Origin: Denitrovibrio sp.
GTDB taxonomy: Bacteria; Chrysiogenota; Deferribacteres; Deferribacterales; Geovibrionaceae
DNA length: 52,028 nucleotides
Reading direction: 5' to 3'
NCBI GenBank assembly: GCA_002869145.1
Contig: PKTM01000006.1
Coordinates: 1-52,028 of the forward strand
Shown here: positions 16,734 to 38,879 of the stretch, piece by piece
Layout of the letters: each line of letters begins with the position of its first letter
How positions within the stretch are numbered: position 1 is the stretch's first letter
Notes under the pieces: generated by a model
Database searches by the model: none
Told to the model about the DNA's origin: nothing
Seen by the model: the letters and a program-made list of their open reading frames with translations, nothing else
Program-made: the position numbers and the translations under genes

Positions 16734-17063
16734 TTAACCGCATGTCTCAGGCTGATCTGAGTCTGCTGCGTGATCAAAGAGGTATCTGAAGATGTGCTGC
16801 ATATCTTCTGTTGATTCAATACCTTCCCATTTTCCTTTGCAAGGAAGTTTTTCTGGGTTAGTGAAAGCATCTTTCCACTGAGCCTGTGTGCGTGTTGAAG
16901 CACCTTGCTTAGCGGAGAGTTTTGTACCATCAGCACATTTTGTGTGATATCTTTTCCAAAGTCTTTTACCTTTTCTGCCGTCTCCAGCATCAAAATCCAT
17001 TGCGAATGCGCTTGTAGCCATAACAGCAACAGCGAGAACAACAAGCATAGTTTTTCTGAACAT
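16734..17063 (-). CDS. Periplasmic cytochrome-c-like protein without a haem motif
   Basis: A 109-residue protein with a clear Sec signal peptide (MFRKTMLVVLAVAVMATSAFA) and start chosen after an AAGGAG site. The mature part has GDGRKGKRLWKRYHTKC, TRTQAQWKDAF and the ending HAADSDQPETCG, which resemble small monohaem cytochrome c family proteins of anaerobes. The CxxCH haem-binding motif is absent: only a single Cys is present where the motif would be, with others in PCKG and TCG. It may be a haemless paralogue or bind another cofactor. A shared TTGTATACAAT element lies upstream, tying it to the sulfur island. Confidence 0.6.
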   Translation of the reverse strand: MFRKTMLVVLAVAVMATSAFAMDFDAGDGRKGKRLWKRYHTKCADGTKLSAKQGASTRTQAQWKDAFTNPEKLPCKGKWEGIESTEDMQHIFRYLFDHAADSDQPETCG

Positions 17064-17110
17064 ATTAATTCTCCTTACTTTAAACCAAGTCTTTGGTGTT
17101 TGTTTGAAAT

Positions 17111-17164
17111 AACATAACATCCAAATATTAAGATTTCAAGATATTTTTGTATATTGTATACAAT
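17111..17164 (-). promoter_or_regulatory. TTGTATACAAT-RTACA element and promoter of the cytochrome-like gene
   Basis: Reading leftward, ATTGTATACAATATACA occupies 17164-17148. It is followed 8 bp later by TTGAAA (17139-17134) and, after 17 bp, TATGTT (17116-17111). The first 12 bases are a perfect palindrome. The same 17 bases occur at 27767-27783, and a one-change version at 19301-19317. Confidence 0.6.
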
Positions 17165-17259
17165 CTTTTTCATTTAAAAAAGTTTTTTAAAGTCTCTGTG
17201 TTGCTTGTATAGTAGTATTTAGATGTTTATCAATATATTAATATAGCCCTATTTGTTTA

Positions 17260-17288
17260 TTGACAAGGGTTAAAAATGAGAGTAAAAA
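17260..17288 (+). promoter_or_regulatory. Possible fccAB promoter
   Basis: TTGACA (17260-17265) is followed after 17 bp by TAAAAA (17283-17288), a four-of-six -10 match. It lies about 55 bp upstream of the fccA start. Confidence 0.35.
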
Positions 17289-17344
17289 GGTATTATATTT
17301 CAAAAAGTATTTACAGGTATAGTCACTTTAAACTGGGAGGTTTT

Positions 17345-17926
17345 ATGAGTATTAAAAAGCTTCTTATAACTATGGCTGTTGCAGCTGTGCTTATTGTGCC
17401 TGCTGCAGGTTTCTCTGACACAATTGCTGAAGGCGAAAGGCTAGGCAAAACCTGCGCCGGATGCCACGGTACTGCTGGCAACACACCGGGTACATATATC
17501 GGGAAGATAGGCGGACAAAATTCTGCTTATATGTCTAAAGTGCTGAAAGAGTTTTCAGCTGATAAACGACCTGCCAGTGTGGAGATGTCTATTGTGGCAA
17601 AAGGTTACAGTGATATACAGCTAGAGTCTGTTGCAGCTTACTATGCTTCTTTGAAGTGGGTAAATTCTGACAACCCTGTTGACAGTAAAAAAATACTGGC
17701 CGGCAAGGCAATGGCTTCGGATAATGGATGTTTGGACTGCCATGGAATAAAAGGTGAGGGTATAGGTGAATTCCCCAGAATAGGCGGACAGAACAAAGGA
17801 TATCTTTATGAAGTTATGAAGCGTTACCGTTCTGGTGATATCAGTTCAGACGAAATGAGCATGCTCTCTGACTTTTCAGATGACCAGCTTGATCAGCTTG
17901 CAAATTTCTTTTCCGGAATAAGATAG
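17345..17926 (+). CDS. fccA: Dihaem cytochrome c, subunit of flavocytochrome c sulfide dehydrogenase
   Basis: A 194-residue periplasmic protein with a Sec signal peptide and two class I haem motifs, CAGCH (37-41) and CLDCH (129-133). Each is followed by an IGGQN...Y block, as in cytochrome c4 and FccA-like dihaem proteins. The start at 17345 has GGGAGG at good spacing. It is followed 10 bp later by the flavin subunit gene. In the FccAB complex it takes electrons from sulfide oxidation at the flavin and passes them on. Stop is TAG. Confidence 0.85.
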   Translation: MSIKKLLITMAVAAVLIVPAAGFSDTIAEGERLGKTCAGCHGTAGNTPGTYIGKIGGQNSAYMSKVLKEFSADKRPASVEMSIVAKGYSDIQLESVAAYYASLKWVNSDNPVDSKKILAGKAMASDNGCLDCHGIKGEGIGEFPRIGGQNKGYLYEVMKRYRSGDISSDEMSMLSDFSDDQLDQLANFFSGIR

Positions 17927-17936
17927 GGGGACTGCA

Positions 17937-19238
17937 ATGAGTATATCAAGGCGTAATTTTATAAAGTACACTTCAGCTGCAGCAATAGGAGCTGGAGTTT
18001 TAGGTTGCCACCACGAGATTAATGTGAGCAGTTCCACAGGTATAATAATGCCTAAATCGTCCAAGCGGATAGTTATCCTAGGTGGCGGCTGGGGCGGTGC
18101 TACTGCTGCAAAATACTTAAAACTTGAAGACCCTTCTTTAGATGTTGTGCTGGTTGAGAGACAGGATAGCTTTATATCCTGCCCTGTGAGCAACTGGGTT
18201 ATCGGCGGATTTAGAAAAATGAGTGATATTACTGTAAGCTATGAAGGGCTTATTAAAAACTATGGTATAAAAGTTCTGCACGCAGAGGCGAAAGAGCTTG
18301 ATGCAGAAAACGGTCAGCTTAAGACTGATAAAGGGATTGTAGAATTTGACCTTCTGCTGGCATCCCCGGGTATATCATATAAATATGATACAGTAGAGGG
18401 ATTGAATACACCGGACGCAATAGACAGATTTCCGGCGGCATTCAAGGCCGGAGCAGAGACAGTCAAGCTCGCAGAGCGGCTGGCTGCAATGAAACCCGGA
18501 GGGAGTGTTCTTTTGACTGTTCCTCCCACCCCTTACAGGTGTCCGCCAGGTCCTTATGAGCGGATTTCACTTATAGCTGACTACCTTAAAAAGAATAAGC
18601 CGGGGTCAAAGCTTATAGTTTTTGACTCAAATGACGGTATTGTCTCCAAAGGCCCTTTGTTTAAGAAGGCGTGGAACGACTATTACAGCGATATTATCGA
18701 ATATGTGCCTGATAATTATCTGGTTTCCGTGGATGCCGGTACAGGCAGAGTTGTATCTGAAAAGGGTGAGATTACACCTGATGTTGTAAACGTCATTCCA
18801 GCCATGAAAGCTAATCAGACGGCTTTTGATCTTGGCCTTATGGATAAGGACGATGATGAGTGGGTTAGGGCATATCCGGATACATTTATGTCTTATAAAT
18901 ATGAAAATGTTTATGTTGTAGGTGATTCAACTCACAACGGAGCTGTGGGAGGTGTGCCGAAATCCGGATATGTGGCAAACTCCATGGGGAAGGTTGCGGC
19001 ATCTGCTATGGCCAGAAGGCTGAACGGCAAAGAACCTCTTGAGCCTACATATGCTAATACCTGCTACTCTCTGGTAAATGAGCAGGAGGGGATATTTGTT
19101 TCTGCGGTTTACCGTTATGATAAAAATATTAAAAGGATAATGAGTGTCTCTGGCGGCGTGTCTCCTGAGAGAAAAGCTCTTTTTGCAAAACATGCACAGA
19201 ACTGGGCTGAAAGCATCTGGAGCGACATGCTTCTGTAG
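17937..19238 (+). CDS. fccB: Flavocytochrome c sulfide dehydrogenase, flavin subunit
   Basis: A 433-residue protein with a twin-arginine leader (SRRNFIKYTSAAAIGAG). The FAD-binding loop is VILGGGWGGATAAKYL (46-61), and a second block is VYVVGDSTHNGAVGGVPKSG (325-344). Conserved cysteines include C202 in PYRCPPGPYER and C376 in ANTCYSLV, which match the redox disulfide pair of FCSD proteins; C82 (FISCPVSN) is also conserved. The enzyme oxidises sulfide to sulfane sulfur or polysulfide in the periplasm. It is in an operon with fccA and the terminator is at 19268. An SQR-like function in the reverse direction cannot be excluded. Stop is TAG. Confidence 0.88.
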   Translation: MSISRRNFIKYTSAAAIGAGVLGCHHEINVSSSTGIIMPKSSKRIVILGGGWGGATAAKYLKLEDPSLDVVLVERQDSFISCPVSNWVIGGFRKMSDITVSYEGLIKNYGIKVLHAEAKELDAENGQLKTDKGIVEFDLLLASPGISYKYDTVEGLNTPDAIDRFPAAFKAGAETVKLAERLAAMKPGGSVLLTVPPTPYRCPPGPYERISLIADYLKKNKPGSKLIVFDSNDGIVSKGPLFKKAWNDYYSDIIEYVPDNYLVSVDAGTGRVVSEKGEITPDVVNVIPAMKANQTAFDLGLMDKDDDEWVRAYPDTFMSYKYENVYVVGDSTHNGAVGGVPKSGYVANSMGKVAASAMARRLNGKEPLEPTYANTCYSLVNEQEGIFVSAVYRYDKNIKRIMSVSGGVSPERKALFAKHAQNWAESIWSDMLL

Positions 19239-19267
19239 AACGAGATTATGGTCATATGCCCGCTTAG

Positions 19268-19303
19268 GAACGGGGGCTCGCAAGGGTTTCCCGTTCTTTT
19301 TTT
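19268..19303 (+). terminator. fccAB terminator
   Basis: Stem GAACGGG (19268-19274) with CCCGTTC (19290-19296), followed by TTTTTTT. Confidence 0.8.
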
Positions 19304-19364
19304 GTATACAATGTACATTATTTCGTCAAAATCGCTTTACAAACATTTATAAAGAAATTATAGT
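19301..19364 (+). promoter_or_regulatory. TTGTATACAAT-RTACA element and promoter of the TorD-like gene
   Basis: TTTGTATACAATGTACA lies at 19301-19317. Eighteen bp later there is TTTACA (19336-19341), then 17 bp and TATAGT (19359-19364), a good sigma70 promoter for the chaperone gene at 19403. The element is the second of three copies in the sulfur island. Confidence 0.6.
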
Positions 19365-19402
19365 ATACGGAAATATAAATAAACAAGGATAAGTCTATTT
19401 TA

Positions 19403-20110
19403 ATGTCTGTATATGAAGATTTCAAAATGAAAATACTTTCAAAAGACTACGATGCTGCTAAGCAGATTCTGACTGATGTAGAAATTGACCCGGAAATTTT
19501 CAATGCACTTTCAAACGCAGCAATGTTTCTCTCTCTGGCTTTCAGATATCCAGATGATGATGTTTACGACACTCTTTCAGACAACTGGGACGCTTTTAAA
19601 GATTTTATTACAGATTATTGTGATGGAAATCCTGAGCTTTATGATCAGACAGAGATGGAGAGTGACCATATACTTCTTTTCGATCAGGACCCCAAAGGCA
19701 ATAAAATAGTTCCCTACATTTCATATTACACAGAAATTAATAAGACACTTTATGGTAAAAGTACATTTGATATACGCGAGTGGATGAACGAAGAAGGGTT
19801 CGCGCTTGACAAAGACATAAAAGAGCTGGAAGACCATATCTATGTTGTTCTTGAGTTTATGTCTGTTTTGTTTAAAAGACTTGCACAACCAGAAAATATT
19901 GAGAAATGGTATACAAGTCTCAACAACTTATACAGTTTGCTTGAAAATTATGGACCTGTTATGTCAGATGAATTTGCAGAGGCTTTAAGCAAGCGTGATG
20001 ACAAACCTTTTTACAGCGATTTCGGAAAGATACTTAAAGAATTCCTGAATGATATCGACCCTATTCTGGAAGACACCTTAATAGGCGAGACAGAATCAGA
20101 TATTAAATAA
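19403..20110 (+). CDS. TorD/DmsD-family molybdoenzyme chaperone
   Basis: A 235-residue, acidic, all-helical cytosolic protein. It has the family layout: an LSLAFRYPDDDVYDTL segment, the hinge motif VPYISYYTEINKTLYG, and a second helical half (VVLEFMSVLFKRLAQPEN). TorD proteins bind the Tat signal of a molybdenum reductase and hold it until the cofactor is inserted. The likely client is the Tat-tagged molybdopterin oxidoreductase at 23455, about 3.3 kb downstream. It has its own promoter with the shared palindrome. Confidence 0.85.
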   Translation: MSVYEDFKMKILSKDYDAAKQILTDVEIDPEIFNALSNAAMFLSLAFRYPDDDVYDTLSDNWDAFKDFITDYCDGNPELYDQTEMESDHILLFDQDPKGNKIVPYISYYTEINKTLYGKSTFDIREWMNEEGFALDKDIKELEDHIYVVLEFMSVLFKRLAQPENIEKWYTSLNNLYSLLENYGPVMSDEFAEALSKRDDKPFYSDFGKILKEFLNDIDPILEDTLIGETESDIK

Positions 20111-20122
20111 TAAGGTTTAAGA

Positions 20123-20154
20123 CGAGGATCACACTTTTCAGTATGACCTCCTCG
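20123..20154 (+). other. Stem-loop after the TorD-like gene
   Basis: CGAGGATCA (20123-20131) pairs with TGACCTCCTCG (20144-20154) apart from a two-base bulge. No T-run follows, so it is either a weak terminator or a processing/stability element between the chaperone and porin genes. Confidence 0.4.
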
Positions 20155-20227
20155 AAAGAAAAACGTAATTTTAGTCGAAATGTTTAATAAGGATATAAGA
20201 AGGCAAATCACAATAGCCTTCTAAAAT

Positions 20228-20259
20228 GTTTACTCGGTGCATACAGTCTCTGAGTAAAC
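20228..20259. repeat. Inverted repeat upstream of the porin
   Basis: GTTTACTC (20228-20235) and GAGTAAAC (20252-20259) form an 8-bp perfect inverted repeat with a 16-bp spacer, ending 27 bp before the porin start. It may be an operator or a leader hairpin. Confidence 0.45.
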
Positions 20260-20286
20260 GCATATATATACTATAGGGAGTATTGT

Positions 20287-22404
20287 ATGAAGAAAATTTT
20301 ATCTTTGATTTTTCTGGTTATTTTTTCTGCTACATTTGCCTATGCAGAAGATGTCACTCTTGAAGAACTGAAGTCTCAGATTACAGATCTTCAGGGTGAA
20401 GTACTTAAAATGTCTAGACGTGTGGACAAGAACGAAGTTCACCGCATTTTGGACAAAGTTGATATTGGTGTTGAGCTTCGTAGTAGAGTTGAAAGCCTCA
20501 GCTACAAAGACACAAGAGCTTTGCCAATGTATGCTAATGACATGCTTGGTCTCTGGATGAGAGGTTACATGACAACTTTTGATTCAGGGTCAGCTATCGA
20601 CACAGCAACTGATGGCATGGGTCTTACAGATGGTTTTAACGATAGCTATATGATTACTAACGGCGCGACTCATGGCAGCCAATTTCAAGCTCTTATGAAC
20701 AATCTTAATGCTCAGGTATCTCCAAGCACTGAAGCTCAAGAGTTTCAGATGAACTACGCTAAACTTGTTGGGTTTAGTGCAATTCAGCCTATGATGACTG
20801 CAGATGAAATCGCAGCTGCACAGAGATATTTTGATGATGTATTACAAGCTAACGCTTCATTTTATAATGCTCAAGGTGACGGAGCTCCTGGCGGCGCAAT
20901 GGGCGATGACCTTGCAGGCATGCTTGTAGCAGGAACTTCACCAGACGCACTTGTTGGAAACCTCACAGCAGCTTTCCAAGGAATGGGGATTGACGCTACT
21001 ACTGCTCAAATGCAAGCTATGCAGTTTGTACAATTCGCAGTTCTTCGTTATATGTTTGATGATACAACTCTTACACATCAAGAAGTTAATACATTCAAAT
21101 CTATGTTCAAAGGCATAGAGCCACGCAAATACGAGCACAACAACAGCTCTCTTTTCACTAACAAACTTAGAATAAGACTTAACAGCAAAGTGAACAGTAA
21201 CCTTTCATTTGCTGGCCGTCTTGCTATGTATAAAGTATGGGGCGACGCTACTGATGTTCAGTGGATGGACGGAACATACAAGTCTATGTATCTTGATGGA
21301 AACGCTGGCGCTGTTCCAACAGATGACAAAATCCACGTTGAAAGAGCCTATTTCGTATATAACAATGCAATGGGGCCAATTGACTGGCACTTCTCTTTTG
21401 GTAGAAGACCTTCCGTTAACGGTCCTGGTGCTGAGAACAAAGAATACGCATCACTTGGCGGTTCACCAGTTTCTCACATAATCCAGTGGCAGTTCGATGG
21501 TGCTTCACTTCAGTTTAATTTCGAAAACCTTATTGAGTGGCTTCCTGGTTCATTTGTGAAGTTCTGCTACGGTAAAGGTTATGAATCCGGTTGGGGTTCA
21601 AGCAATGCAACTGCTGCTAACAATGGACTTATAGCTACACCTGAAGTTGACGATGTTGAGTTCCTCGGTGTTATCGTAAGATTCTACGATGATGAACAAT
21701 ACAAACTCTGGTACAACTATGCTAAAGGCGTTGGCGTAACAGATGGTTTCACAGGTTCTGTTGTTATGCCTTTCTCAGTAACAGGTCAGGACTACGATCT
21801 TGACGGCGAATATGATGAATACATGTTAGACCCTAACTACACAGCAGGTTCTTCCAGAACAGAAGCTACTGCAGAAGTTGGTGACATGGAGTGGCATGCA
21901 CTTCTTGCTCAGGGTGAAACATTTGGTTTCAGCTGGTTCGCTTCTGCTGCTATGTCAAAGTCTCATCCAGACGGAAGATCTAAAGCTGCTATGTATCAGT
22001 TCATGGATCAGGATAGAATGCTTGGTTCCACAGACAGCAAAACAGGTACAAGTTACTGGTTTGGTATTGCGACACCTGACCTTCCATTTACTGGCGGTAA
22101 ATTCGGTTTCGAATACAACCAGGGTTCTAAGTACTGGGTAAGCATGACAGCTTGTGAAGATGACACAGTTGGCTCTAAACTTGCTGTTCGCGGTAAAGTT
22201 TATGAAATGTATTACCACCAGCCGATTGTTGGTCAGAGACTTTTCGCTACTATCGGTTACCAGAAATTTGACTATGACTACACAGGTTCAGGCTCATACC
22301 TTGGCGCACCTGTGAAGATAGAAGATGCTAATGCTATCAACACTATGATGGCTGTTGCTGACAAAGTTGAGAAAATCTACGCTTCATTTACATACAGATA
22401 CTAA
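20287..22404 (+). CDS. DUF3373-type outer membrane porin
   Basis: A 705-residue exported protein. A Sec signal peptide (about 1-20, ending FAYAEDV) is followed by a short coiled coil (LEELKSQITDLQGEVLKMSRRVD), then a long beta-rich region with alternating aromatic strands and the final strand IYASFTYRY ending in an aromatic residue, as in beta-barrel outer membrane proteins. This layout matches the DUF3373 family found in anaerobic respirers, often near reductases. It probably admits the substrate or exports a product of the neighbouring periplasmic enzymes. Codon usage (strong use of favoured codons) suggests high expression. It has a strong terminator. Confidence 0.8.
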   Translation: MKKILSLIFLVIFSATFAYAEDVTLEELKSQITDLQGEVLKMSRRVDKNEVHRILDKVDIGVELRSRVESLSYKDTRALPMYANDMLGLWMRGYMTTFDSGSAIDTATDGMGLTDGFNDSYMITNGATHGSQFQALMNNLNAQVSPSTEAQEFQMNYAKLVGFSAIQPMMTADEIAAAQRYFDDVLQANASFYNAQGDGAPGGAMGDDLAGMLVAGTSPDALVGNLTAAFQGMGIDATTAQMQAMQFVQFAVLRYMFDDTTLTHQEVNTFKSMFKGIEPRKYEHNNSSLFTNKLRIRLNSKVNSNLSFAGRLAMYKVWGDATDVQWMDGTYKSMYLDGNAGAVPTDDKIHVERAYFVYNNAMGPIDWHFSFGRRPSVNGPGAENKEYASLGGSPVSHIIQWQFDGASLQFNFENLIEWLPGSFVKFCYGKGYESGWGSSNATAANNGLIATPEVDDVEFLGVIVRFYDDEQYKLWYNYAKGVGVTDGFTGSVVMPFSVTGQDYDLDGEYDEYMLDPNYTAGSSRTEATAEVGDMEWHALLAQGETFGFSWFASAAMSKSHPDGRSKAAMYQFMDQDRMLGSTDSKTGTSYWFGIATPDLPFTGGKFGFEYNQGSKYWVSMTACEDDTVGSKLAVRGKVYEMYYHQPIVGQRLFATIGYQKFDYDYTGSGSYLGAPVKIEDANAINTMMAVADKVEKIYASFTYRY

Positions 22405-22433
22405 TCTGAGTAAATAACTTTAGATAAACCTTT

Positions 22434-22471
22434 AAAGCAGGCTGTAAAATTTTACAGCCTGCTTTTTTTAT
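22434..22471 (+). terminator. Strong porin terminator
   Basis: A 32-bp perfect palindrome (22434-22465) with arm AAAGCAGGCTGTAAAA, followed by a T-run. Confidence 0.9.
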
Positions 22472-22603
22472 AATCACATAAAACTTTCGTTTTGAAATTG
22501 TATTAGGTTCAGTAAATGCTATATTAATAAATCCAATAGCACAAAAATAAGATATTAAATAAATTTATAAAAATTAACTAATTTTAAAAATATTTTGCAT
22601 TAT

Positions 22604-22670
22604 GGGCATATGCTAATGCAATTATAAATAGATTCAGAAATTTACATAAATAGGTTGTGGTCATATGATT
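22604..22670 (+). promoter_or_regulatory. Paired CATATG sites upstream of the DUF134 gene
   Basis: GGGCATATGCTA (22604-22615) and GGTCATATGATT (22659-22670), starts 55 bp apart. Near-identical sites (GGGCATATGATC, AGGCATATGCTA), 58 bp apart, precede the reductase gene at 23455. They are likely binding sites for one regulator, plausibly the DUF134 protein itself. Confidence 0.55.
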
Positions 22671-22696
22671 GAAAACAGCAGCTGTTTTATTTTTTA

Positions 22697-22724
22697 TTGA
22701 CGTACGACCGTAATTGTATATAAT
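22697..22724 (+). promoter_or_regulatory. Promoter of the DUF134 regulator
   Basis: TTGACG (22697-22702), 16 bp, then a perfect TATAAT (22719-22724), 40 bp before the start at 22764. The nearest CATATG site ends 26 bp upstream of the -35, a typical activator position. Confidence 0.65.
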
Positions 22725-22763
22725 TCAGCAAATCAAAAAAATTCATTTATTACAGGTGATTGT

Positions 22764-23225
22764 ATGGCGCGCCCCCCAAAAAAGAGATTTGTTCAGCATA
22801 GGATAACATACAAAGAGTTTGGTCCTGCCAGCTCAAAAGCAAATTCTGATTTAGAAACAAAAACAGTAACACTTACAGCTGATCAGCTTGAAGCAATGCG
22901 CCTTGCTGACCTTGAAGGTATGTCTCATAATGATGCATCAGATGTCATGAAAGTATCTCGACAGACTTTCGGCCGTATCATAGAACAGGCCAGACAGATA
23001 GTGTCAGGAGCTCTTGTCAACGGAAAAACTATCAAGTTAGAAAATGATCCTTGTGTGGAATTCATTGACCGTGAGATTAAATGTATTGAGTGTGGAAATG
23101 AATGGATACTGTCAGGAAGTAATACTGAAGAAAATGTATCCTGTAGCTCTTGTGGTTCAAATGAGATAATAAAGAGAACTCGCTGTGGAGTGCACTGTGA
23201 ATGCTCCCTCAAAATTAATAAATAA
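22764..23225 (+). CDS. DUF134 (UPF0251) transcriptional regulator with zinc ribbon
   Basis: A 153-residue protein. The amino half (MARPPKKRF, LTADQLEAMRLADLEGMSHNDA, VSRQTFGRIIEQARQIV) is the UPF0251 helix-turn-helix, related to sigma region 4. The carboxy half carries two CxxC pairs (CIECGNEW, CSSCGSNE) and a Cys-rich end (RTRCGVHCECSLK) that probably binds zinc or an iron-sulfur cluster. Such proteins are often encoded near redox or Fe/Mo cofactor genes, but their targets are mostly unknown. Its position between porin and reductase and the shared upstream sites suggest it controls the reductase operon. Confidence 0.85.
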   Translation: MARPPKKRFVQHRITYKEFGPASSKANSDLETKTVTLTADQLEAMRLADLEGMSHNDASDVMKVSRQTFGRIIEQARQIVSGALVNGKTIKLENDPCVEFIDREIKCIECGNEWILSGSNTEENVSCSSCGSNEIIKRTRCGVHCECSLKINK

Positions 23226-23285
23226 CAAACCTGTCTTTTAATAAATTTCTTTTTATTGTGCTGATTTCTGCAAAAAAATCGAATA

Positions 23286-23414
23286 GGGCATATGATCAAT
23301 AGTTGCTAGAATAATACGGAAAATATCTTAAATATTTCATTATAGGCATATGCTATAAACTCTTAATATTAATGAAATATTTATATTGACAGTTATAGTC
23401 ATTAGTTCTAATAT
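23286..23414 (+). promoter_or_regulatory. Paired CATATG sites and promoter of the molybdoenzyme operon
   Basis: GGGCATATGATC (23286-23297) and AGGCATATGCTA (23344-23355) precede a promoter TTGACA (23386-23391), 17 bp, TAATAT (23409-23414). The second site ends 30 bp before the -35. The sites mirror those upstream of the DUF134 gene. The start codon at 23455 follows CGGAGG. Confidence 0.6.
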
Positions 23415-23454
23415 TCGAATAAACAATTTTAACCATCCTGTTTCGGAGGCGTAT

Positions 23455-25776
23455 ATGCTTATTAAGAATCCTAAGTTGTCAAGGCGTCGGTTCCTTGCTG
23501 CAGGTGGTGCGGCTGCCACAGTACTTGCTGTTGGCTCTAACGTATCTGTTATGAAAGCTGTTGCATCATCTAAAAACACCAATACCGGCAAAGGTGACAC
23601 AAAACATATTTACAGCTGCTGTGCTGTCTGCGTTAATAAATGCGGATTTATAGCTGAAGTGAATAATGGTGTTATCAGGAAGCTTAACACTAACCCGAAT
23701 TTCTTCAAGTCCAGATCAATGATTTGTGCTAGAGGAAATGCAGGAGCTAAAATCCCATACGATCCAGATCGTCTTAAGTCACCTCTTTTAAGAGTAGGCG
23801 AAAGAGGAGAAGGTAAGTGGAAGAAAATTTCATGGGATGAAGCTTACAGCTATATTACAGAAAACGTAATGAAGCTTATTAAGGAAGAAGAGAACAGATC
23901 TACTATAGCTTTTGCTGCTACTGAAGGTATGCAGGAAGAGTTCTACCTCGCACTTGCGAGCACAATAGGTTCTCTTAACACTGTAAGACACCCTACACTC
24001 TGTCTTGCGTCTAACATTCAGGGGTACTCCTCAGTATATGGAACATTTCCTGATGGAGACCTTCTAAATTCCAAGTTTGTTGTTATGTGCGGTAGTAACA
24101 GGGCTGAAGCAATCATTACCCCTGACACTATTGATATGGCTAAAAACAAGCGCAATCAGACACTTGTATGCATCGACCCAAGAGCTACTAAAACAACAGC
24201 TATCGCTGACAAATGGTATCCTATCAAACCGGGTACAGACCTTGCTTTAGTTCTTGCTGTTATTAACCACATTATATCTAACGATCTTTATGATAAAGCT
24301 TTCGTAGAGCAGTGGACTGTTGGTTTTGACGAGCTTAAAGAGTCTGTTAAAAAATATTCTATCGACTGGGCTGCTAATGAGACAGAGATTGATGCGAAAG
24401 AGATCAAGTGGCTTGCAGAAGAGTTTGCAAAGAATGCTCCTGCTTCTGTTTGGTATCCTGGCAGAAGAAGCTCTTTCTACTCTAATGACGTCTATTACAG
24501 AAGAGCTATTGCTATCCTTAACGCCATCGTAGGTGCATGGGATAAGCCGGGCGGACTTGTTCCTAAATCTGCTGTACCTCTTAAGGCTCATGAGATCATT
24601 TATCCTTTCTACGATCTGGTTGAATCCAGAATAGACACAGGCAAACTCGACTTTATCAAAGATATGGTAGATGAGTATGCCCGTGGTGTAATACCTACTG
24701 ATGCTGGTGTATACCTTTCTGAGAAAGACGGTTCATGGCCTATCTTCAGAGAAGCGATACTTAAGCGTGAGCCTTACACTGTGAGAGGTATGTTTGTTTA
24801 CAAGCAGAACCCAGTAGAGTCTGTTCCTAACAGAGCAAAAACACTTGAAATGATGAAGCAGCTTGATTTTATCTGTACTATTGATACACAGATGAGCGAC
24901 ACTGCTTTCTTTTCAGATATAGTCCTACCAGAGTCCACATATCTTGAAAGATGGGACCCAGCTCACAACCTTAGCGGTATACAGCCAATAGTTGTATTCC
25001 GTCAGCCGGTTATAGAGCCCCTTCACAACACAAAGTCTATGTTTGACATGTGGGTAGATCTTACTAAAAGATTTATTGATATTCCAGAATTCTGGGAAGA
25101 TACAACAGAAGATGATAAGGAATACTTTGTAGAGCAGTTCGAAAAAATGCTTAAACCTGAGCATCCAATTGAACACCTAATAGAATATCAGCTTTCCGGT
25201 CACAAAGACGGATTTAAGAAACTGATGGAGAATGGCTGTTTCTGGATTCATGAGAAACCAGTGTTCGGTACTACTTACAAAAAAGGTAAGTTTAAAACCA
25301 GAACAGGAAAAGCAGAACTTTTCTCGCAGAGATATCTTGATAAAGGGCTTGAGCCTCTTCCTGTTTACACTGCTGTACCTCAGCCAGAACCAGGCGAGTT
25401 CAGATTTGTAGTAGGTAGACACGGTCAGTTCACTCACGCAAACACTCAGAACAACATGTGGCTGCTTGAAGCATACGGCGATACAGAAAACGCCTGCTGG
25501 ATAAGTGCTAAAGTTGCAAGAGAGCGCGGAATCAAGAGCGGTGATCGCCTTAAGATTAAGAGTGAAGTAGGTGAAGAGACCGCTAAGGCTCTTGTTACTG
25601 AGTACACCAGAGATGACGTAGTTTACTATGTTCATGGTTTCGGTAGACTTTCTCAGGGACTTACAAACATCTATAAGAAAGGTGCATCACAGGCTGCTGT
25701 TATCAAAGATTATGTTGATACAATTTCCGGAAACGCTGCTCTGCATGAAACCTTTGTAACAATAGAAAAAGCGTGA
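23455..25776 (+). CDS. Periplasmic molybdopterin oxidoreductase, polysulfide/thiosulfate reductase-like catalytic subunit
   Basis: A 773-residue DMSO-reductase-family enzyme with a Tat leader (SRRRFLAAGGAAA). A [4Fe-4S] motif is C56-x2-C59-x3-C63-x27-C91. The probable Mo ligand is C183 in HPTLCLASN, as in the Psr/Phs/Ttr/Arr branch. Cofactor-binding blocks include GTDLALVLA, VWYPGRRSS and the carboxy domain GRHGQFTHANTQN. Length fits PsrA/PhsA. With the four-cluster FeS subunit and NrfD anchor it makes a membrane-bound, quinol-linked periplasmic reductase. Sulfur context (rhodanese, Fcc) favours polysulfide, thiosulfate or tetrathionate, but arsenate or selenium oxyanions cannot be excluded. 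The start at 23455 is supported by a ribosome site; an upstream ATA/TTG start is not. Confidence 0.88.
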   Translation: MLIKNPKLSRRRFLAAGGAAATVLAVGSNVSVMKAVASSKNTNTGKGDTKHIYSCCAVCVNKCGFIAEVNNGVIRKLNTNPNFFKSRSMICARGNAGAKIPYDPDRLKSPLLRVGERGEGKWKKISWDEAYSYITENVMKLIKEEENRSTIAFAATEGMQEEFYLALASTIGSLNTVRHPTLCLASNIQGYSSVYGTFPDGDLLNSKFVVMCGSNRAEAIITPDTIDMAKNKRNQTLVCIDPRATKTTAIADKWYPIKPGTDLALVLAVINHIISNDLYDKAFVEQWTVGFDELKESVKKYSIDWAANETEIDAKEIKWLAEEFAKNAPASVWYPGRRSSFYSNDVYYRRAIAILNAIVGAWDKPGGLVPKSAVPLKAHEIIYPFYDLVESRIDTGKLDFIKDMVDEYARGVIPTDAGVYLSEKDGSWPIFREAILKREPYTVRGMFVYKQNPVESVPNRAKTLEMMKQLDFICTIDTQMSDTAFFSDIVLPESTYLERWDPAHNLSGIQPIVVFRQPVIEPLHNTKSMFDMWVDLTKRFIDIPEFWEDTTEDDKEYFVEQFEKMLKPEHPIEHLIEYQLSGHKDGFKKLMENGCFWIHEKPVFGTTYKKGKFKTRTGKAELFSQRYLDKGLEPLPVYTAVPQPEPGEFRFVVGRHGQFTHANTQNNMWLLEAYGDTENACWISAKVARERGIKSGDRLKIKSEVGEETAKALVTEYTRDDVVYYVHGFGRLSQGLTNIYKKGASQAAVIKDYVDTISGNAALHETFVTIEKA

Positions 25777-25787
25777 GGAAGTAAGAT

Positions 25788-26345
25788 ATGAGTAATAAAA
25801 AATACGCAATAATTCTTGATGATACAACCTGCATCGACTGCAAGGCTTGCACTTTAGCCTGCAAAACCGAAAACAACGTTGAGGCTGGCTTTTTTAGCTA
25901 CCGCAACTGGGTTGGAGAGATTGAAAACGATCAGGCAGTATTTCCTAATATCAGAAGGAAGTTCAGGCCAAGTCAGTGTCAGCAGTGCGATAACCCGCCA
26001 TGCGTTCACGTTTGTCCTACAAGAGCTTCTTATCAGACAGAAGACGGTGTAGTGCTTGTTGATTATCACAAGTGTATCCTCTGTAAATACTGTATGACAG
26101 CATGTCCATACGATGCCCGCTACGAAAGCCACGACAAACATGCTATCGACAAGTGTACTTTCTGCTACCACAGGCTGGCTGAAGGTAGAGAACCTGCATG
26201 TGTAGAAACTTGCCCTCCGAAGGTTAGAAAATTCGTTAACCTTCTCGACAAGCAAGATGAAAACACAAAGCTTCTTCAGACAGAAGCTATAGAGGTTCAG
26301 AAACCTGAAAAGGGCACTAAGCCTAAACTTTACTACATAAAGTAA
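25788..26345 (+). CDS. Four-cluster iron-sulfur electron transfer subunit (PsrB/PhsB-like)
   Basis: A 185-residue ferredoxin-type subunit with sixteen cysteines in four groups: CIDCKACTLAC, CQQCDNPPCVHVC, CILCKYCMTAC and CTFC-x11-ACVETC, which bind four [4Fe-4S] clusters. It relays electrons from the NrfD anchor to the molybdopterin subunit. It lies 11 bp after the catalytic gene and 14 bp before the NrfD start, so the three form an operon. No export signal of its own is seen, so it is probably carried across with the Tat-tagged catalytic subunit. Confidence 0.92.
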   Translation: MSNKKYAIILDDTTCIDCKACTLACKTENNVEAGFFSYRNWVGEIENDQAVFPNIRRKFRPSQCQQCDNPPCVHVCPTRASYQTEDGVVLVDYHKCILCKYCMTACPYDARYESHDKHAIDKCTFCYHRLAEGREPACVETCPPKVRKFVNLLDKQDENTKLLQTEAIEVQKPEKGTKPKLYYIK

Positions 26346-26359
26346 TATTGGAGGAAACT

Positions 26360-27550
26360 ATGTCCAGCCATACAGAAGCTGTAAAAAGCCATTCAGATAT
26401 ATTTAATGGCAATAAACGCATACCTTTGTCGGTGATAATTGTGCTTCTTGCTTTAAGCGCAGTGTCACTCTATGGTTTGTTTAACGTGATCACCCAAGGT
26501 CACACAGCCTCATACGGAACAACTAAGACTGTTCCATGGGGTATCCTGATTTCTACATATGTGTTCTTTGTTGTTTCCAGTACAGGACTCTGTCTGATCT
26601 CATCTATGGGGCACGTGTTTAATATTGAGAAGTACGAAGTTATTGGGAAAAGAGCAATAATACTGGCGATACTTACAATCTGTTGTGGATTTTTTGTAAT
26701 CGCAACAGAAATTGGCCACCCAATAAGAATGGCGATATACAACGTTATATCTCCTAACTTAGCATCCGCTATCTGGTGGATGGGTACTCTTTACGGTATA
26801 TACCTTTTCTGTATTATCGTGGAGTTTTACTTCCTGATGACACACAACCATAAAGGTGCATTTTATGCAGGTCTTGCAGGTTTCATAGCGGGGATTTCCG
26901 CTCACTCAAACCTCGGTGCGGTTTTCGGTTTCCTTGATGCGAGACCATTCTGGCACGGACCATACCTGCCTATATACTTCATACTTTCAGCCTTAATTTC
27001 TGGATGTGCTCTCGTTATCATTATTTTTAACGTAGCTTACAAAGGCGAGGCTAATATGCCTGCAAAAGCTAAGGAAGCACTTCTTGGAATCGCTAAGATA
27101 TTCGGACTTCTTCTCGGTATCATTATATTCTTTGATATCTGGAAAGTTCTTACATCTGTATACGGTGCTCCGCCTGAAAAGTATGAAGCAGTTATGACAA
27201 TGATCGCAGGCCCGCTTTCAATAAACTTCTGGTTTTTTGAAGTACTGCTTGGAATGCTTATTCCTTTTGCGCTCATACTCGGTACAAAAGGCAGAAGTAT
27301 TAAAGCTGCCCTTGTTGCATCCTGTTCAGCAATTGTTGGTATATTCTTCATGAGATATGACCTGGTAGTTGCTGGTCAGCTTGTTCCTATGAGAGAAGCA
27401 ACAGCAGGTTCCAGGGTACAGGGTGTGGTTGAAGGACTTGCTCAGTACACACCGACTGCTTCTGAGATAACTATTGTTGCAGGTGCTATAATCCTCTGTG
27501 CAGGACTGTACCTTGCAGCGGAAAGATTCCTCAACCTTACAGAGGATTAA
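26360..27550 (+). CDS. NrfD/HybB-family membrane anchor subunit
   Basis: A 396-residue integral membrane protein with about eight to ten hydrophobic segments. Blocks such as ATEIGHPIRM, WWMGTLYGIYLFCIIVEFYF and GAVFGFLDARPFWHGP are typical of the long NrfD/HybB branch. It binds quinol and passes electrons to the FeS subunit. The start is the ATG at 26360 after GGAGG (26350-26354); the TTG at 26348 overlaps that site. It ends the operon, with a terminator at 27591. Confidence 0.88.
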   Translation: MSSHTEAVKSHSDIFNGNKRIPLSVIIVLLALSAVSLYGLFNVITQGHTASYGTTKTVPWGILISTYVFFVVSSTGLCLISSMGHVFNIEKYEVIGKRAIILAILTICCGFFVIATEIGHPIRMAIYNVISPNLASAIWWMGTLYGIYLFCIIVEFYFLMTHNHKGAFYAGLAGFIAGISAHSNLGAVFGFLDARPFWHGPYLPIYFILSALISGCALVIIIFNVAYKGEANMPAKAKEALLGIAKIFGLLLGIIIFFDIWKVLTSVYGAPPEKYEAVMTMIAGPLSINFWFFEVLLGMLIPFALILGTKGRSIKAALVASCSAIVGIFFMRYDLVVAGQLVPMREATAGSRVQGVVEGLAQYTPTASEITIVAGAIILCAGLYLAAERFLNLTED

Positions 27551-27590
27551 TTTCCAAATAAGGCATTATTCATGCTTTACATATCAAAAA

Positions 27591-27619
27591 AGCCGGAGTG
27601 AAAACTCCGGCTTTTTTTG
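27591..27619 (+). terminator. Reductase operon terminator
   Basis: Stem AGCCGGAG (27591-27598) with CTCCGGCT (27605-27612), then a run of seven T. Confidence 0.88.
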
Positions 27620-27996
27620 TCTAAAAATACATTTTATACACAATTGTTATACACGGGTGCTCTTTTTAATAAGTTCTGTAACTTTCATAAGACTAAAAAG
27701 AACTCAATATATCAGAAGTTTGTATCTGTGTTCAATTATCAAGTATATTCATAAAAAAATTACTATATTGTATACAATATACATTGTAATATCCGTGCAT
27801 TTATGTATAATCAAACTATTGTTGAATATGTAGGTCGTTATATACAAATACATAAAGACCTATAGGTAAACAATAATATGCTCAGATATGAATATTAAGA
27901 TAAACATATATGCAGATATTTTAATGTTGTTTCAGAGCAAATAGAACATAATTTTAGACAAGAGCTAAGAATCATTAAAAACGTTGGAGGTTGTTT
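27620..27996 (+). promoter_or_regulatory. 377-bp AT-rich control region with TTGTATACAAT-RTACA element and promoter of the rhodanese gene
   Basis: ATTGTATACAATATACA (27767-27783) directly abuts a promoter TTGTAA (27784-27789), 16 bp, TATAAT (27806-27811). The remaining sequence is A/T-rich without coding potential and leaves a leader of about 180 bases. The start has TTGGAGG at 27984-27990. Confidence 0.6.
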
Positions 27997-29196
27997 ATGC
28001 GTTTAATGAGCAAGATGCTTATGGTTGTTGCACTTATGGTAACAATGCTTGTGATTGGTTGTGGTCAGGCTGCGAAAGCACCTGTAGAAGGAAAAGGCGG
28101 CCCTAGTGTCGCAGAAAAGATCAAAGCTGCTGGCTTTGAAATGGTTAAGATCGACGAAGTTAAAGAAATCGTTGGTAATGGTGTTTACAGCAAGGAGAGG
28201 GGAACTCTTGTTGATGCACGCCCTGAAAGAAGCTATGACAAAGGTCATATAGCTACATCTCAGGCTCTTCCAGACACAAAGTTTGACGCTTTCTTCCCAG
28301 AGTTTGAAAAGCTTGGTCTTAATAAAGACGACCTTATCGTAACTTACTGTGGCGGAGTTAAATGCGGCAAATCCCTTATAGTTGCTAAAGCTCTCAGAGC
28401 TAAAGGCTACACAAACATCAAGATATATCTTGATGGTGAGCCAGACTGGACTAAAAAAGGTAACTACTTAGAGATTTCTATGTCTGTTGCTAAGAAAAAC
28501 TTTGATAAAGGCGGATTCGTATTTATCGATGCTCGTCCTGCAAGAGTTTTCAAAAAAGGCACAATAGCTGGCTCTATCAATATTCCAGATACAAAATTTG
28601 ACGAATACAAAGATCAGCTTCCTGCTGACAAAAACGTTGCTGTAATAGCTTTTTGTGGTGGATTCAAGTGTGAGAAGTCACACATTGTCGCTTACAAAAT
28701 GCTTGCTATGGGCTATACAAACGTAGTTGTGTACGCTGGCGGTGTTCCAGAGTGGAAAGCTGCAGGCTACCCAATGGCTAAAGGCGGGGCTGCTCCTGCA
28801 ATGAAAAAAGCTGCTTCAGCTTCCTCAGAAGGTTTTAAGATAGAAGAGCAGGGTATACTTATTACTCAGTTTTTCATCGATGAACTTCTTGACCCAGCTG
28901 ACAGACCAGCAGATGTAACTATCGTTGACGTACGTAACGACGACGAAGTTGCTGCCGGCAAAATTCCTGGCACTGTTCACGTGACATCAAAAATCCTTCA
29001 TAACGATGGATGCGATGCATTCCTTTCCAAAATGCCTAAAGAAGGCAGAGTGGTATTCCACTGTGCTTCCGGCGGTAGAGCAGGAGAGGTTTATTTCGGT
29101 CTGCTTGATGACTGCAAACCAGCAGATATCGACAGATACTACTTTCTTGACGCAGCTGTTAACTGTGACACTCAGCCTTGCAAAATAGGTATGTAA
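27997..29196 (+). CDS. Three-domain rhodanese lipoprotein
   Basis: A 399-residue exported lipoprotein (lipobox LVIGC, C22). It has three rhodanese domains in tandem: residues about 65-160 with active-site loop YCGGVKCGKS (C118, C123), about 165-262 with FCGGFKCEKS (C220, C225), and about 290-395 with HCASGGRAGE (C356). The first two share CGG-x2-C-x-KS with a second cysteine and closely resemble each other, so they arose by duplication. Rhodaneses carry sulfane sulfur as a cysteine persulfide. Anchored in the envelope next to a Psr-like reductase and FccAB, it could deliver or take up polysulfide sulfur. It has its own promoter with the shared palindrome. Confidence 0.85.
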   Translation: MRLMSKMLMVVALMVTMLVIGCGQAAKAPVEGKGGPSVAEKIKAAGFEMVKIDEVKEIVGNGVYSKERGTLVDARPERSYDKGHIATSQALPDTKFDAFFPEFEKLGLNKDDLIVTYCGGVKCGKSLIVAKALRAKGYTNIKIYLDGEPDWTKKGNYLEISMSVAKKNFDKGGFVFIDARPARVFKKGTIAGSINIPDTKFDEYKDQLPADKNVAVIAFCGGFKCEKSHIVAYKMLAMGYTNVVVYAGGVPEWKAAGYPMAKGGAAPAMKKAASASSEGFKIEEQGILITQFFIDELLDPADRPADVTIVDVRNDDEVAAGKIPGTVHVTSKILHNDGCDAFLSKMPKEGRVVFHCASGGRAGEVYFGLLDDCKPADIDRYYFLDAAVNCDTQPCKIGM

Positions 29197-29220
29197 TTAA
29201 CTCGTAAGAGTTTAAATAGA

Positions 29221-29248
29221 AAAGGCAGCTTTCGGGCTGCCTTTTTTT
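29221..29248. terminator. Bidirectional terminator between rhodanese gene and mobB
   Basis: Stem AAAGGCAGC (29221-29229) with GCTGCCTTT (29236-29244), followed by T residues on the plus side. It lies between convergent genes. Confidence 0.85.
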
Positions 29249-29747
29249 ATGTAAGAAGTTTTTCTACTATATAATCGACTATTTCATTCGCATTATTCAA
29301 ATCAAGTGTTTTCAGGTTATGAAGCTGCTCATTCTCCGGCATATCTGTGGCAACAGCTATAAGGTTCGGGTCGTTACTGCACTGAAGATTTGTCGAAAAA
29401 TCTGACCGAAAAACCTCAATCTTGTTTTGAAGTTCCTGTTTAAAACCTTCTGCGATAATTATATCTGTAGTTTCCGGTAGATATTTTATCAGCTCAAAGA
29501 TGGATTTCTCTTCATCGACATCACTAACGAGTGCAAATTTTCGTTTATTTGATATGATCACAGCATCAGCACCGGCATTTTTATGGCGCCAGGTGTCTTT
29601 ACCTTCTTTATCCATCTGAAAGTCATGTCCATCGTGCTTTACCGTAGAGACTCTATAGCCTCTGCTTTTAAGCTCACTTATTACTTTTACAATAAGTGTT
29701 GTTTTTCCGCATCCGGATGTTCCAACAAAAGAGACCAGAGGTTTCAT
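29247..29747 (-). CDS. mobB: Molybdopterin-guanine dinucleotide biosynthesis adaptor protein
   Basis: A 166-residue P-loop GTPase with Walker A GTSGCGKTTL (9-18), the STVKHDGHDFQMDKEGKDT block and IIAEGFK typical of MobB. It assists MobA in attaching GMP to molybdopterin for DMSO-reductase-family enzymes. It diverges from mobA across 79 bp. The cofactor is needed by the reductase at 23455. Length is normal. Confidence 0.92.
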   Translation of the reverse strand: MKPLVSFVGTSGCGKTTLIVKVISELKSRGYRVSTVKHDGHDFQMDKEGKDTWRHKNAGADAVIISNKRKFALVSDVDEEKSIFELIKYLPETTDIIIAEGFKQELQNKIEVFRSDFSTNLQCSNDPNLIAVATDMPENEQLHNLKTLDLNNANEIVDYIVEKLLT

Positions 29748-29826
29748 GTTATATTCTCCATATCACTTTCATAATATTAATTTTATGTGTAGAATTAGAA
29801 TATACAATTTTTGATTAGGGATGTAA

Positions 29827-30420
29827 ATGAACATAAACATAGCAGTTATGGCCGGTGGGCAGAGCCGGAGATTTGATACTGACAAAACTCTTGAGATATT
29901 CGATGGAAAGCCCCTTATTCAGCATCCTGTTGATAACCTTTCTAAGATAGCAGACAATATTGCTGTAGTTTCAAAAGACTGTCTAAAATATAAGTTTTTA
30001 AATATTGCCTGTATAACTGATGCATATGATGTGCAGTGTCCGATGGTGGGCATTCTGACAGCCCTTAAGCACTTTCAAGCGCCTGTTTTCGCTTTAGCCG
30101 CGGATACGCCTTTCGCTGAGCCAGCCCACGTTAAAAAGCTCTTTAATGCACTTGTGGACTATGATGCAGTTATGCCTGTGATAGACGGTAAACAGCACCC
30201 TTTATACGCTTGTTACAGTAACAGTCTGATAGATGCTCTGGACAAGGCTTTAGAGGCTGGCCAGTATGGACTTATGAAAACATTAGCTGAGCTCAACGTG
30301 TGGTATTTAGATAATAATTCCTTATTTGACTCGGAAAATGAGAAAAAATCGTTTATAAATATTAATACAAGAGATGACTATAATTTTGCAAAAAAATATA
30401 CAGGAGACAAAAATGGCTGA
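29827..30420 (+). CDS. mobA: Molybdenum cofactor guanylyltransferase
   Basis: A 197-residue nucleotidyltransferase with the signature VMAGGQSRRFDTDK and the LAADTPFAEP metal-binding block of MobA. It transfers GMP from GTP to molybdopterin, giving the MGD form. The last 8 bases overlap the DHH gene start. Length matches the family (about 190-200 aa). Confidence 0.93.
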   Translation: MNINIAVMAGGQSRRFDTDKTLEIFDGKPLIQHPVDNLSKIADNIAVVSKDCLKYKFLNIACITDAYDVQCPMVGILTALKHFQAPVFALAADTPFAEPAHVKKLFNALVDYDAVMPVIDGKQHPLYACYSNSLIDALDKALEAGQYGLMKTLAELNVWYLDNNSLFDSENEKKSFININTRDDYNFAKKYTGDKNG

Positions 30421-31339
30421 AAAATTCAGGCTTGTTACAAGAAGCGACTTTGATGGACTAGTGTGTGCAGTTCTTTTAAAAGAGCTTGATCTTATTGATG
30501 ACATAAAATTTGTTCACCCAAAAGATATGCAGGACGGACTTATTGATATCACATCAGAGGACATTACAACAAACCTTCCTTACGTCGAAGGAGTGCACTT
30601 AGCCTTTGACCACCACCTGAGTGAAACAATCCGGGTTGGTGAAAAGGATAATCATATTATAGATCCTGATGCACCATCTGCAGCCAGAGTTGTTTATAAT
30701 TATTACGGCGGAGACGATAGATTTGCCAATATTAACAAAGACATGATGGAAGCAGTTGACAGAGGCGACTCTGCTGATTTTACTCAGGAGCAGGTTCTCA
30801 ACCCGAAAGGGTGGGATCTTATGAACTTCCTTATGGACGCCAGGACTGGGCTTGGCAGATTCAGGGATTTCAACATATCCAACTACCAGCTTATGATGAA
30901 ACTAATCGACCTTTGCAAAGACAAACCTATCGAAGTTATTATGGAAGACCCTGACGTTCAGGAGAGAGCTGCGCTTTATATGGATCAGCAGATCCAGTGT
31001 ATCAAGCAGATCAACAGCTGTGCCACTGTTCACAAAAACCTTGTTGTACTTGACCTCCGAGAAGAGGATGTTATCTATGCAGGTAACAGATTCATTATAT
31101 ACGCACTTTTCCCAGAGCAGAACATCTCTATACATGTTCTGTGGGGGCTGAAGAAGCAGAATACTGTTTATGCTGTAGGAAAATCTATTTTTAATAAGTC
31201 GTCAAATACTAACATCGGCGAGCTGATGCTTCGTTATAACGGCGGCGGTCACAAAAATGCGGGTACATGTCAGGTTGCAAATGATAAGGCTGAAGATGTT
31301 CTCAAAGAACTTATTATCTCTATAAATGCGGATGGTTAA
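30413..31339 (+). CDS. DHH-family phosphoesterase
   Basis: A 308-residue protein with motif SDFDGLVCAVLL, the DHH motif in FDHHLSE, and the carboxy DHHA1 block YNGGGHKNAGTCQV. The start at 30413 has AGGAG; longer forms would overlap mobA. Family members include exopolyphosphatases, c-di-AMP/nanoRNA phosphodiesterases (NrnA/GdpP type) and RecJ; this one lacks membrane parts and is closest in form to the exopolyphosphatase/NrnA-like group, but the central sequence is divergent. It is probably translated with mobA. Substrate unknown. Confidence 0.8.
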   Translation: MAEKFRLVTRSDFDGLVCAVLLKELDLIDDIKFVHPKDMQDGLIDITSEDITTNLPYVEGVHLAFDHHLSETIRVGEKDNHIIDPDAPSAARVVYNYYGGDDRFANINKDMMEAVDRGDSADFTQEQVLNPKGWDLMNFLMDARTGLGRFRDFNISNYQLMMKLIDLCKDKPIEVIMEDPDVQERAALYMDQQIQCIKQINSCATVHKNLVVLDLREEDVIYAGNRFIIYALFPEQNISIHVLWGLKKQNTVYAVGKSIFNKSSNTNIGELMLRYNGGGHKNAGTCQVANDKAEDVLKELIISINADG

Positions 31340-31911: not shown

Positions 31912-31963
31912 TGATAAACTTCATGTAAAGTAAAAGCCCGCAAAAGTAGCGATCTTTTACTTT
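31912..31963. repeat. 47-bp direct repeat, second copy, with convergent terminator
   Basis: The repeat is 31912-31958. A 10-bp stem AAAGTAAAAG (31927-31936) with CTTTTACTTT (31954-31963) shows that the hairpin was remodelled compared with the first copy. It probably terminates the SnoaL-like gene and overlaps the stop codon of the convergent lipoprotein gene. Confidence 0.65.
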
Positions 31964-33266: not shown

Positions 33267-33402
33267 TATGTCCTCCAGAGTAAGCATGATTAATTGTACC
33301 TTTAAATATCAATATTGTAATAAGTATTTTGCAAAGTGAGATATTGCCCTTTTGGCTTCTGATTATATGATCGTCTGAGAAATTATTAAAGGTGCTGAAA
33401 GG

Positions 33403-35948: not shown

Positions 35949-35961
35949 TTTTAAAGCCCCC

Positions 35962-38696: not shown

Positions 38697-38879
38697 ATTC
38701 ACCTCCAACTATATCCTTATAAAATAAAATAAAACAAAAGTCAATCGATGTTTTATAAGGCTTAATCGTTACGTTAACTTATATATTAATGCAAACAGTG
38801 TTATGAACCTTACAATCTAATGGCCGCAATGTAATAAAACTTACAATTATTTAAAATAGTTAATAAGGTGAATTTTTAC

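Follow-up and report, generated by a model that had tools for sequence, protein, structure and literature searches.

A putative sulfane-sulfur reduction island with an added flavocytochrome c in Denitrovibrio sp.

Does a sulfur reductase encoded beside a sulfide-oxidising flavocytochrome c form one periplasmic system with it, and in which direction would such a system run? The question is raised by a 52,028-nucleotide stretch of Denitrovibrio sp. DNA (contig PKTM01000006.1, positions 1 to 52,028 of the forward strand; hereafter, the window), within which a 12-kb stretch holds, in order, a haem-less cytochrome gene, fccAB, torD with a DUF3373 porin gene, a DUF134 regulator gene with psrABC, a triple-rhodanese lipoprotein gene, and mobB-mobA. 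The parts were identified with Pfam and NCBIfam scans and from the translations, and all of those named in an earlier note on this DNA (the reductase with its iron–sulfur (FeS) and long NrfD subunits, its chaperone, MobA/MobB, porin, lipoprotein, haem-less protein, regulator, and FccAB) were found where that note had placed them. Read from the sequence, the parts, their conserved order, the catalytic residues, the phylum-wide co-occurrence, and a common putative operator point to a Psr/Phs-type system that reduces sulfane sulfur in the periplasm and to which an enzyme for sulfide oxidation has been added; we assign this reading a probability of about 0.6. Most parts are of known kinds; new are their combination, a putative common control switch tied to the respiration of acetate, and a cytochrome whose haem has been lost. 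The earlier note knew of no described system with exactly this set, and the combination was likewise not found in the part of the literature that was covered.

The host genome (G000; 2.88 Mb, 99.4% complete) groups with those of D. acetiphilus (G018) and Denitrovibrio BM704 (G019) in the family Geovibrionaceae (Geovibrionaceae = Denitrovibrionaceae under GTDB naming), and the named relative closest to it in the catalytic subunit (76% identity) is a Denitrovibrio metagenome-assembled genome (MAG). Among the genomes compared, we take G022 to be Geovibrio thiophilus, G011 Deferribacter desulfuricans, G015 Flexistipes, G006 Calditerrivibrio, G003 Desulfurispirillum indicum, and G024–G028 Seleniivibrio. 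G013 is Deferrivibrio V6Fe1, its identity having been confirmed from a paper. The island order (haem-less protein or mini-cytochrome, fccAB, torD, porin, psrABC, rhodanese) was kept with small moves in eight Geovibrionaceae genomes (G000 and G018–G024) from four genera, and because of this recurrence the island is beyond chance. Genes for sulfur reduction that lie scattered in most Deferribacterota are thus joined with sulfide oxidation in one family.

The reductive set and its substrate

The catalytic subunit gene, psrA type 1, probably spans 23455..25776 (+ strand). Its open frame starts at TTG 23386, which overlaps a TTGACA promoter-like hexamer, and ATG 23455 is the likely start, having a GGAGG site upstream and a twin-arginine translocation (Tat) signal, SRRRFL, downstream. 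The protein is of the type that binds a molybdenum bis(pyranopterin guanine dinucleotide) cofactor; the Mo-ligand Cys206 (numbered from 23386), the N-terminal 4Fe-4S motif, and the Tat signal are all present, and the alignment retained equivalents of R81 and R332. It is followed by psrB (25788..26345, +), with 16 Cys for four 4Fe-4S clusters, and psrC (26348..27550, +), a long NrfD-type membrane subunit of 400 aa with about 9–10 hydropathy peaks, presumed to be the quinone side of the enzyme. Family scans assigned torD (19403..20110, +) to the TorD/DmsD-type chaperones of molybdoenzymes. The DUF134 helix-turn-helix/zinc-ribbon regulator gene (22764..23225, +) was linked to psrA type 1 by family scan and locus comparison, and it adjoins type-1 psr in most genomes.

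Over residues 70–796, PsrA scored 343 bits against Thermus thermophilus Psr; it scored 498 bits against the PhsA model (NCBIfam equivalog), short of the curated cut-off of 694; comparisons to ArrA were lower, at 154 and 190 bits. The phylogeny proposed in the earlier note as a check placed the subunit in the PsrA/PhsA clade, where it grouped with Thermus Psr (2vpw) and a plasmid PhsA (support 99/98) in a maximum likelihood tree of 38 sequences that included no SrrA. The genome's own ArrA, NapA-like, and DmsA-like enzymes fell outside that clade (ArrA at 86/92) in this tree, which has some long branches, and the scores and the tree together rule out an ArrA, NapA, or DmsA identity for the catalytic subunit. 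An ArrA-type protein is also encoded elsewhere in the genome (contig C25, locus L006; 1182 bits, below the 1600 cut-off), through which arsenate reduction may be a separate possibility for this organism. Plasmid searches returned only distant relatives of PsrA, which served as reference sequences, and no match to the DUF3373 porin.

In the tree, PsrA of the Deferribacterota formed two sister paralogues. Type 1 (100/99) comprised the window, one BM704 copy, Deferribacter, Flexistipes, and Calditerrivibrio, and type 2 (99/99) comprised the islands of the Geovibrionaceae as well as Deferribacter and others. The BM704 island carries both types in tandem, the window type 1 only, and D. acetiphilus type 2 only; therefore, within a single genus the slot is filled by different psr paralogues. 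The psrC–rhodanese gap of the window showed no trace of a type 2 psr. The two psr sets of BM704 are separated by genes for an SBP_bac_11 solute-binding protein and a CX3CH mini-cytochrome (L009, 14355-15687), both absent from the window.

The DUF3373 gene (20287..22404, +; Pfam, 491 bits) encodes a predicted outer-membrane pore protein, its family being counted among the outer-membrane pore families (PMC4827864); structure prediction from two sequences gave an unusable model (predicted local distance difference test (pLDDT) score, 30). The lipoprotein gene (27991..29196, +) encodes a lipobox and three rhodanese domains, each with its active-loop Cys (loops CGGVKC, CGGFKC, and CASGGR). Co-occurrence was tabulated by hand across 39 near-complete genomes, uncorrected for relatedness, which tempers all of the following counts. 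Genomes with psr also carried the rhodanese (22/22, p=5e-9), the porin (21/22), and the mini-cytochrome (20/22), even where these were unlinked (p from 1e-6 to 5e-9 overall). The reductive set of Psr, DUF3373 porin, mini-cytochrome, and rhodanese is therefore strongly supported as one functional unit.

The same modules recur in other arrangements. The psrABC clusters of Deferribacter, Deferrivibrio, and Flexistipes share both Psr paralogues, DUF134, and the triple rhodanese with the Geovibrionaceae islands, but their modules are scattered (PMC6896113, PMC11896075): in these genera and in Calditerrivibrio, torD, a CX3CH mini-cytochrome, and DUF3373 form a module distant from psr (L115–L118, L121, and L122). 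In Desulfobacterota MAGs, DUF3373 and a CXXCH mini-cytochrome are directly followed by psrA and psrB (L012, 7667-9385; L013, 7769-13667), and in L013 a b561-type cytochrome b follows psrAB in the place of NrfD. The order in L080 and L081 is haem-less protein, psrA, psrB, and rhodanese, with torD detected in L080. The conserved pairing of DUF3373 porin and mini-cytochrome offers a lead on how sulfur crosses the outer membrane.

From family knowledge we infer the substrate, the direction, and the steps of the reductive route. Polysulfide or another small sulfane-sulfur compound would cross the DUF3373 pore, and the triple-rhodanese lipoprotein would carry the sulfur as a persulfide and hand it over to PsrA. 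Sud plays a comparable sulfur-transfer role in Wolinella. Electrons from menaquinol would enter by way of PsrC, the NrfD-type subunit, and of PsrB with its FeS clusters, the sulfane sulfur would be reduced to sulfide at the Cys-ligated Mo of PsrA, and TorD and MobAB would build the holoenzyme. The catalytic clade, the Cys-ligated Mo, the four-cluster FeS subunit, the membrane subunit, and a sulfur-transferase partner are common to the known Psr/Phs systems (Wolinella PsrABC with Sud, Salmonella PhsABC, and Thermus Psr, 2vpw). Unlike these, the window has a 400-aa NrfD, a DUF134 regulator, a triple-rhodanese lipoprotein, a DUF3373 pore, a mini-cytochrome relative, and FccAB alongside.

The PsrA/PhsA/SrrA lineage spans polysulfide, thiosulfate, and selenite reductases (PMC7331816) and characterised Psr and Phs overlap (PMC13047784); hence, the choice among these three substrates cannot be read from the sequence. 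The reductase could instead have selenite or some other chalcogen oxyanion as its substrate, and uptake and sulfur/selenium transfer would then fall to the porin and the rhodanese lipoprotein; we consider this explanation unlikely while giving it some weight. SrrA itself, the catalytic subunit of Srr of Bacillus selenitireducens, belongs to this lineage, and an outer-membrane porin and a rhodanese lipoprotein (ExtI/ExtH) affect selenite reduction in Geobacter (PMC5877670, PMC8981825). Seleniivibrio belongs to the family, and reduction of elemental sulfur (S0) is lacking in many carriers of psr (PMC6896113). ExtH/ExtI of Geobacter sulfurreducens resembles the window in its rhodanese-like lipoprotein, its outer-membrane porin, and its tie to chalcogen reduction, but its barrel is of the phosphate-porin type, different from DUF3373, and it comes with multihaem cytochromes and no molybdoenzyme (PMC5877670). 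The top matches of the catalytic subunit were to PhsA and Psr, and the presence of fccAB suits sulfur better.

Flavocytochrome c and the haem-less cytochrome derivative

fccA (17276..17926, +) encodes a di-haem cytochrome c subunit (haem motifs CAGCH and CLDCH), whose relatives in PDB are cytochromes c4 and the haem subunits of flavocytochrome c sulfide dehydrogenase (FCSD; 1fcd_C and 3vrd_A). The adjoining fccB (17937..19238, +) encodes a flavoprotein with a Tat signal and the FCSD_central and FCSD-flav_bind domains, and a full-length alignment to 1fcd and 5n1t showed that all three functional cysteines are retained, namely Cys82 (flavin) and Cys202 and Cys376 (redox). These domains and cysteines, with the adjoining di-haem c-type subunit, identify the pair as a flavocytochrome c sulfide dehydrogenase, as in Allochromatium (1fcd) and Thioalkalivibrio (5n1t). 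Unlike in those systems, FccAB of the window is encoded together with a sulfur reductase and a cytochrome relative devoid of haem. Family searches of the host genome for DsrA, AprA, and SoxB gave no DsrA or SoxB match and AprA matches of at most 30 bits against a 642-bit cut-off (the searches did not extend to YTD genes or SoxCD). Given better acceptors, FccAB would oxidise sulfide to S0/polysulfide and pass the electrons to cytochrome c, most likely for detoxification or recycling and not as a growth mode.

Divergent from fccA lies a gene (16734..17120, −) for a haem-less derivative of a mono-haem (CX3CH/CXXCH) mini-cytochrome. Homologues occur in 25 genomes of the phylum, with 1–3 per genome in most Deferribacterales that carry psr, and these relatives bear CX3CH or CXXCH; the window protein and seven orthologues in Denitrovibrio and Seleniivibrio have neither motif. 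These eight copies have lost the histidine and the first of the haem cysteines, and they retain Cys62, Cys94, and the C-terminal Cys127. Since dN/dS (nonsynonymous to synonymous substitution rate ratio) is mostly about 0.1–0.2, the gene is under purifying selection. All such loci that were examined have it divergent beside fccA, including those with fcc at a distance from psr (L069 and L072). On these sequence features, the protein is a conserved derivative, under purifying selection, of a porin-linked mono-haem cytochrome, and it presents a clean case of cofactor loss with selection maintained. Structure prediction from three sequences gave an unusable model (pLDDT, 55), and a role as sulfur carrier or as a partner of Fcc is our guess.

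A putative shared operator

A palindrome, TGTATATTGTATACAATATACA, emerged from comparison of the intergenic regions. The window contains it between the haem-less gene and fccA (17147..17163; TTGTATACAATATACA, 0 mismatches), upstream of torD-porin (19302..19317; 1 mismatch), and upstream of the rhodanese gene (27762..27783; two overlapping sites with 0 and 2 mismatches). Allowing up to 3 mismatches, five matches were found, two pairs of them overlapping, versus 0.87 expected, and they were confined to these three places. Genome-wide, G000 had 21 matches with up to 2 mismatches versus 5 for a control pattern, and D. acetiphilus, G022, and G024 had 21, 21, and 10 matches versus 2, 1, and 5, respectively, with most targets recurring. 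Some single genome-wide matches may be chance; the further G000 sites lie upstream of sdh, an ActP-like symporter gene, Rrf2-ccoN (cbb3 oxidase), nuoA, icd, acnB, fumarase genes, and a NuoF-like/NADPH oxidoreductase gene. A site also precedes a GntR-FCD regulator pair (C12:37940), and the core of the palindrome, TTGTATACAA, is similar to the operators of GntR-FCD regulators. The fccA/haem-less, torD-porin, and rhodanese units may thus form one putative regulon with genes of the tricarboxylic acid (TCA) cycle, complex I, and related functions, a regulatory connection of sulfur redox with acetate oxidation that can be put to the test. The expression link that the earlier note asked for is in this way suggested for these units and not for psrABC of the window, which has no operator site and carries the DUF134 regulator gene. 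In relatives, the site also occurs upstream of psrA type 2, a paralogue absent from the window genome.

Strong terminator-like hairpins are seen at the 3' side of the haem-less gene, downstream of fccB (19272..19291, +), and downstream of the porin gene (22434..22465, +; 14 pairs and a T tail), and together with the 440-bp psrC–rhodanese gap they rule out a single operon. We regard as speculative, with little probability, a fuller scheme in which FccAB, the haem-less protein, and Psr-rhodanese would make up a periplasmic sulfur loop. The haem-less protein, whose cysteines are conserved and which keeps its position beside fccA, would act as sulfane-sulfur carrier or third FccAB subunit, and sulfane sulfur would shuttle between Fcc and Psr, linking the cytochrome c and menaquinone pools under an acetate/TCA regulator.

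Direction of the system and neighbouring genes

Several observations weigh against sulfane-sulfur reduction with FccAB added. D. acetiphilus uses nitrate as its only acceptor and yet carries the island with type-2 Psr (PMC3035293). In a 2019 table, S0 reduction is confined to D. autotrophicus, D. desulfuricans, and G. thiophilus, whereas nearly all genomes have psrABC, and most psrABC-bearing Deferribacteres thus fail to reduce S0 (PMC6896113). Deferrivibrio V6Fe1 reduces S0 and does not oxidise sulfide, with its fccAB unlinked (PMC11896075). From these phenotypes, parts lists predict phenotype poorly here. The missing operator at psrABC of the window counts on the same side, as does the distribution of fcc, which is apart from psr in four Seleniivibrio genomes (G025–G028; loci L069–L072 of G025 and G027 were inspected in detail), Calditerrivibrio, and Deferrivibrio, is absent from Deferribacter and Flexistipes, and occurs without Psr in two Deferribacterota families (f6 and f7; L123 and L124). 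Co-occurrence of fcc with psr in the 39 genomes was not significant (p=0.31). As fcc shows no significant association with psr and is part of the island in Geovibrionaceae alone, FccAB is an addition to the reductive set within this one family. Of the island with oxidative and reductive arms described in the earlier note, the reductive set thus holds up as a unit; in one family FccAB is joined to it by position and operator, but Fcc and Psr are not a fixed pair, and any physical contact between them is hypothetical.

The phenotype of D. acetiphilus, isolated from a sulfidic oil-field column (PMC3035293), would also fit a scheme in which both FccAB and Psr run oxidatively, acting as sulfide dehydrogenases that pass electrons to cytochrome c and menaquinone during nitrate ammonification. 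The operator sites upstream of oxidative-metabolism genes agree with it, but the psr-type nrfD genes of V6Fe1, an organism unable to oxidise sulfide, are repressed by nitrate (PMC11896075), and our searches for genes of the later steps of sulfur oxidation (DsrA, AprA, and SoxB) found none; we consider this scheme quite unlikely. It is improbable, too, that two unrelated systems are merely neighbours here, for which the unlinked fcc and psr of several genera, the operator-free psrABC, and the terminators between units might speak, but against which stand the gene order kept across four genera and the operator shared in relatives upstream of fccA, torD, and psrA2/rhodanese. The disproportionation-like cycling raised in the earlier note is very improbable: a sulfur-reducing enzyme does adjoin a sulfide-oxidising one, but FccAB ends at S0/polysulfide, and the search results for DsrA, AprA, and SoxB make the known route unlikely. 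Among the Geovibrionaceae are nitrate ammonifiers from oil-field systems treated with nitrate, a setting in which sulfide is important.

At the downstream end of the island, family scans identified mobB (29247..29747, −), for molybdopterin guanine dinucleotide synthesis, which is likewise adjacent in L009, L062, and L068, and a mobA-like nucleotidyltransferase gene (29827..30420, +). The next gene (30374-31339), which the earlier note had counted within the sulfur island, encodes a DHH-type phosphoesterase-like protein and is not a sulfur gene. Rfam and tRNA/tmRNA scans of the window gave no matches. Farther along, a 1130-aa protein with no Pfam match is encoded at 38961-42353, and glutamate-synthase-like genes extend over three frames at 33612-38708 (GXGXG/NAD-binding; Fe-S/Glu_synthase; and a 372-aa protein without a Pfam match). 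A 441-aa protein with a repeated Lcl_C domain (31962-33287) has a relative inside the G024 island (L068, 15919-17847).

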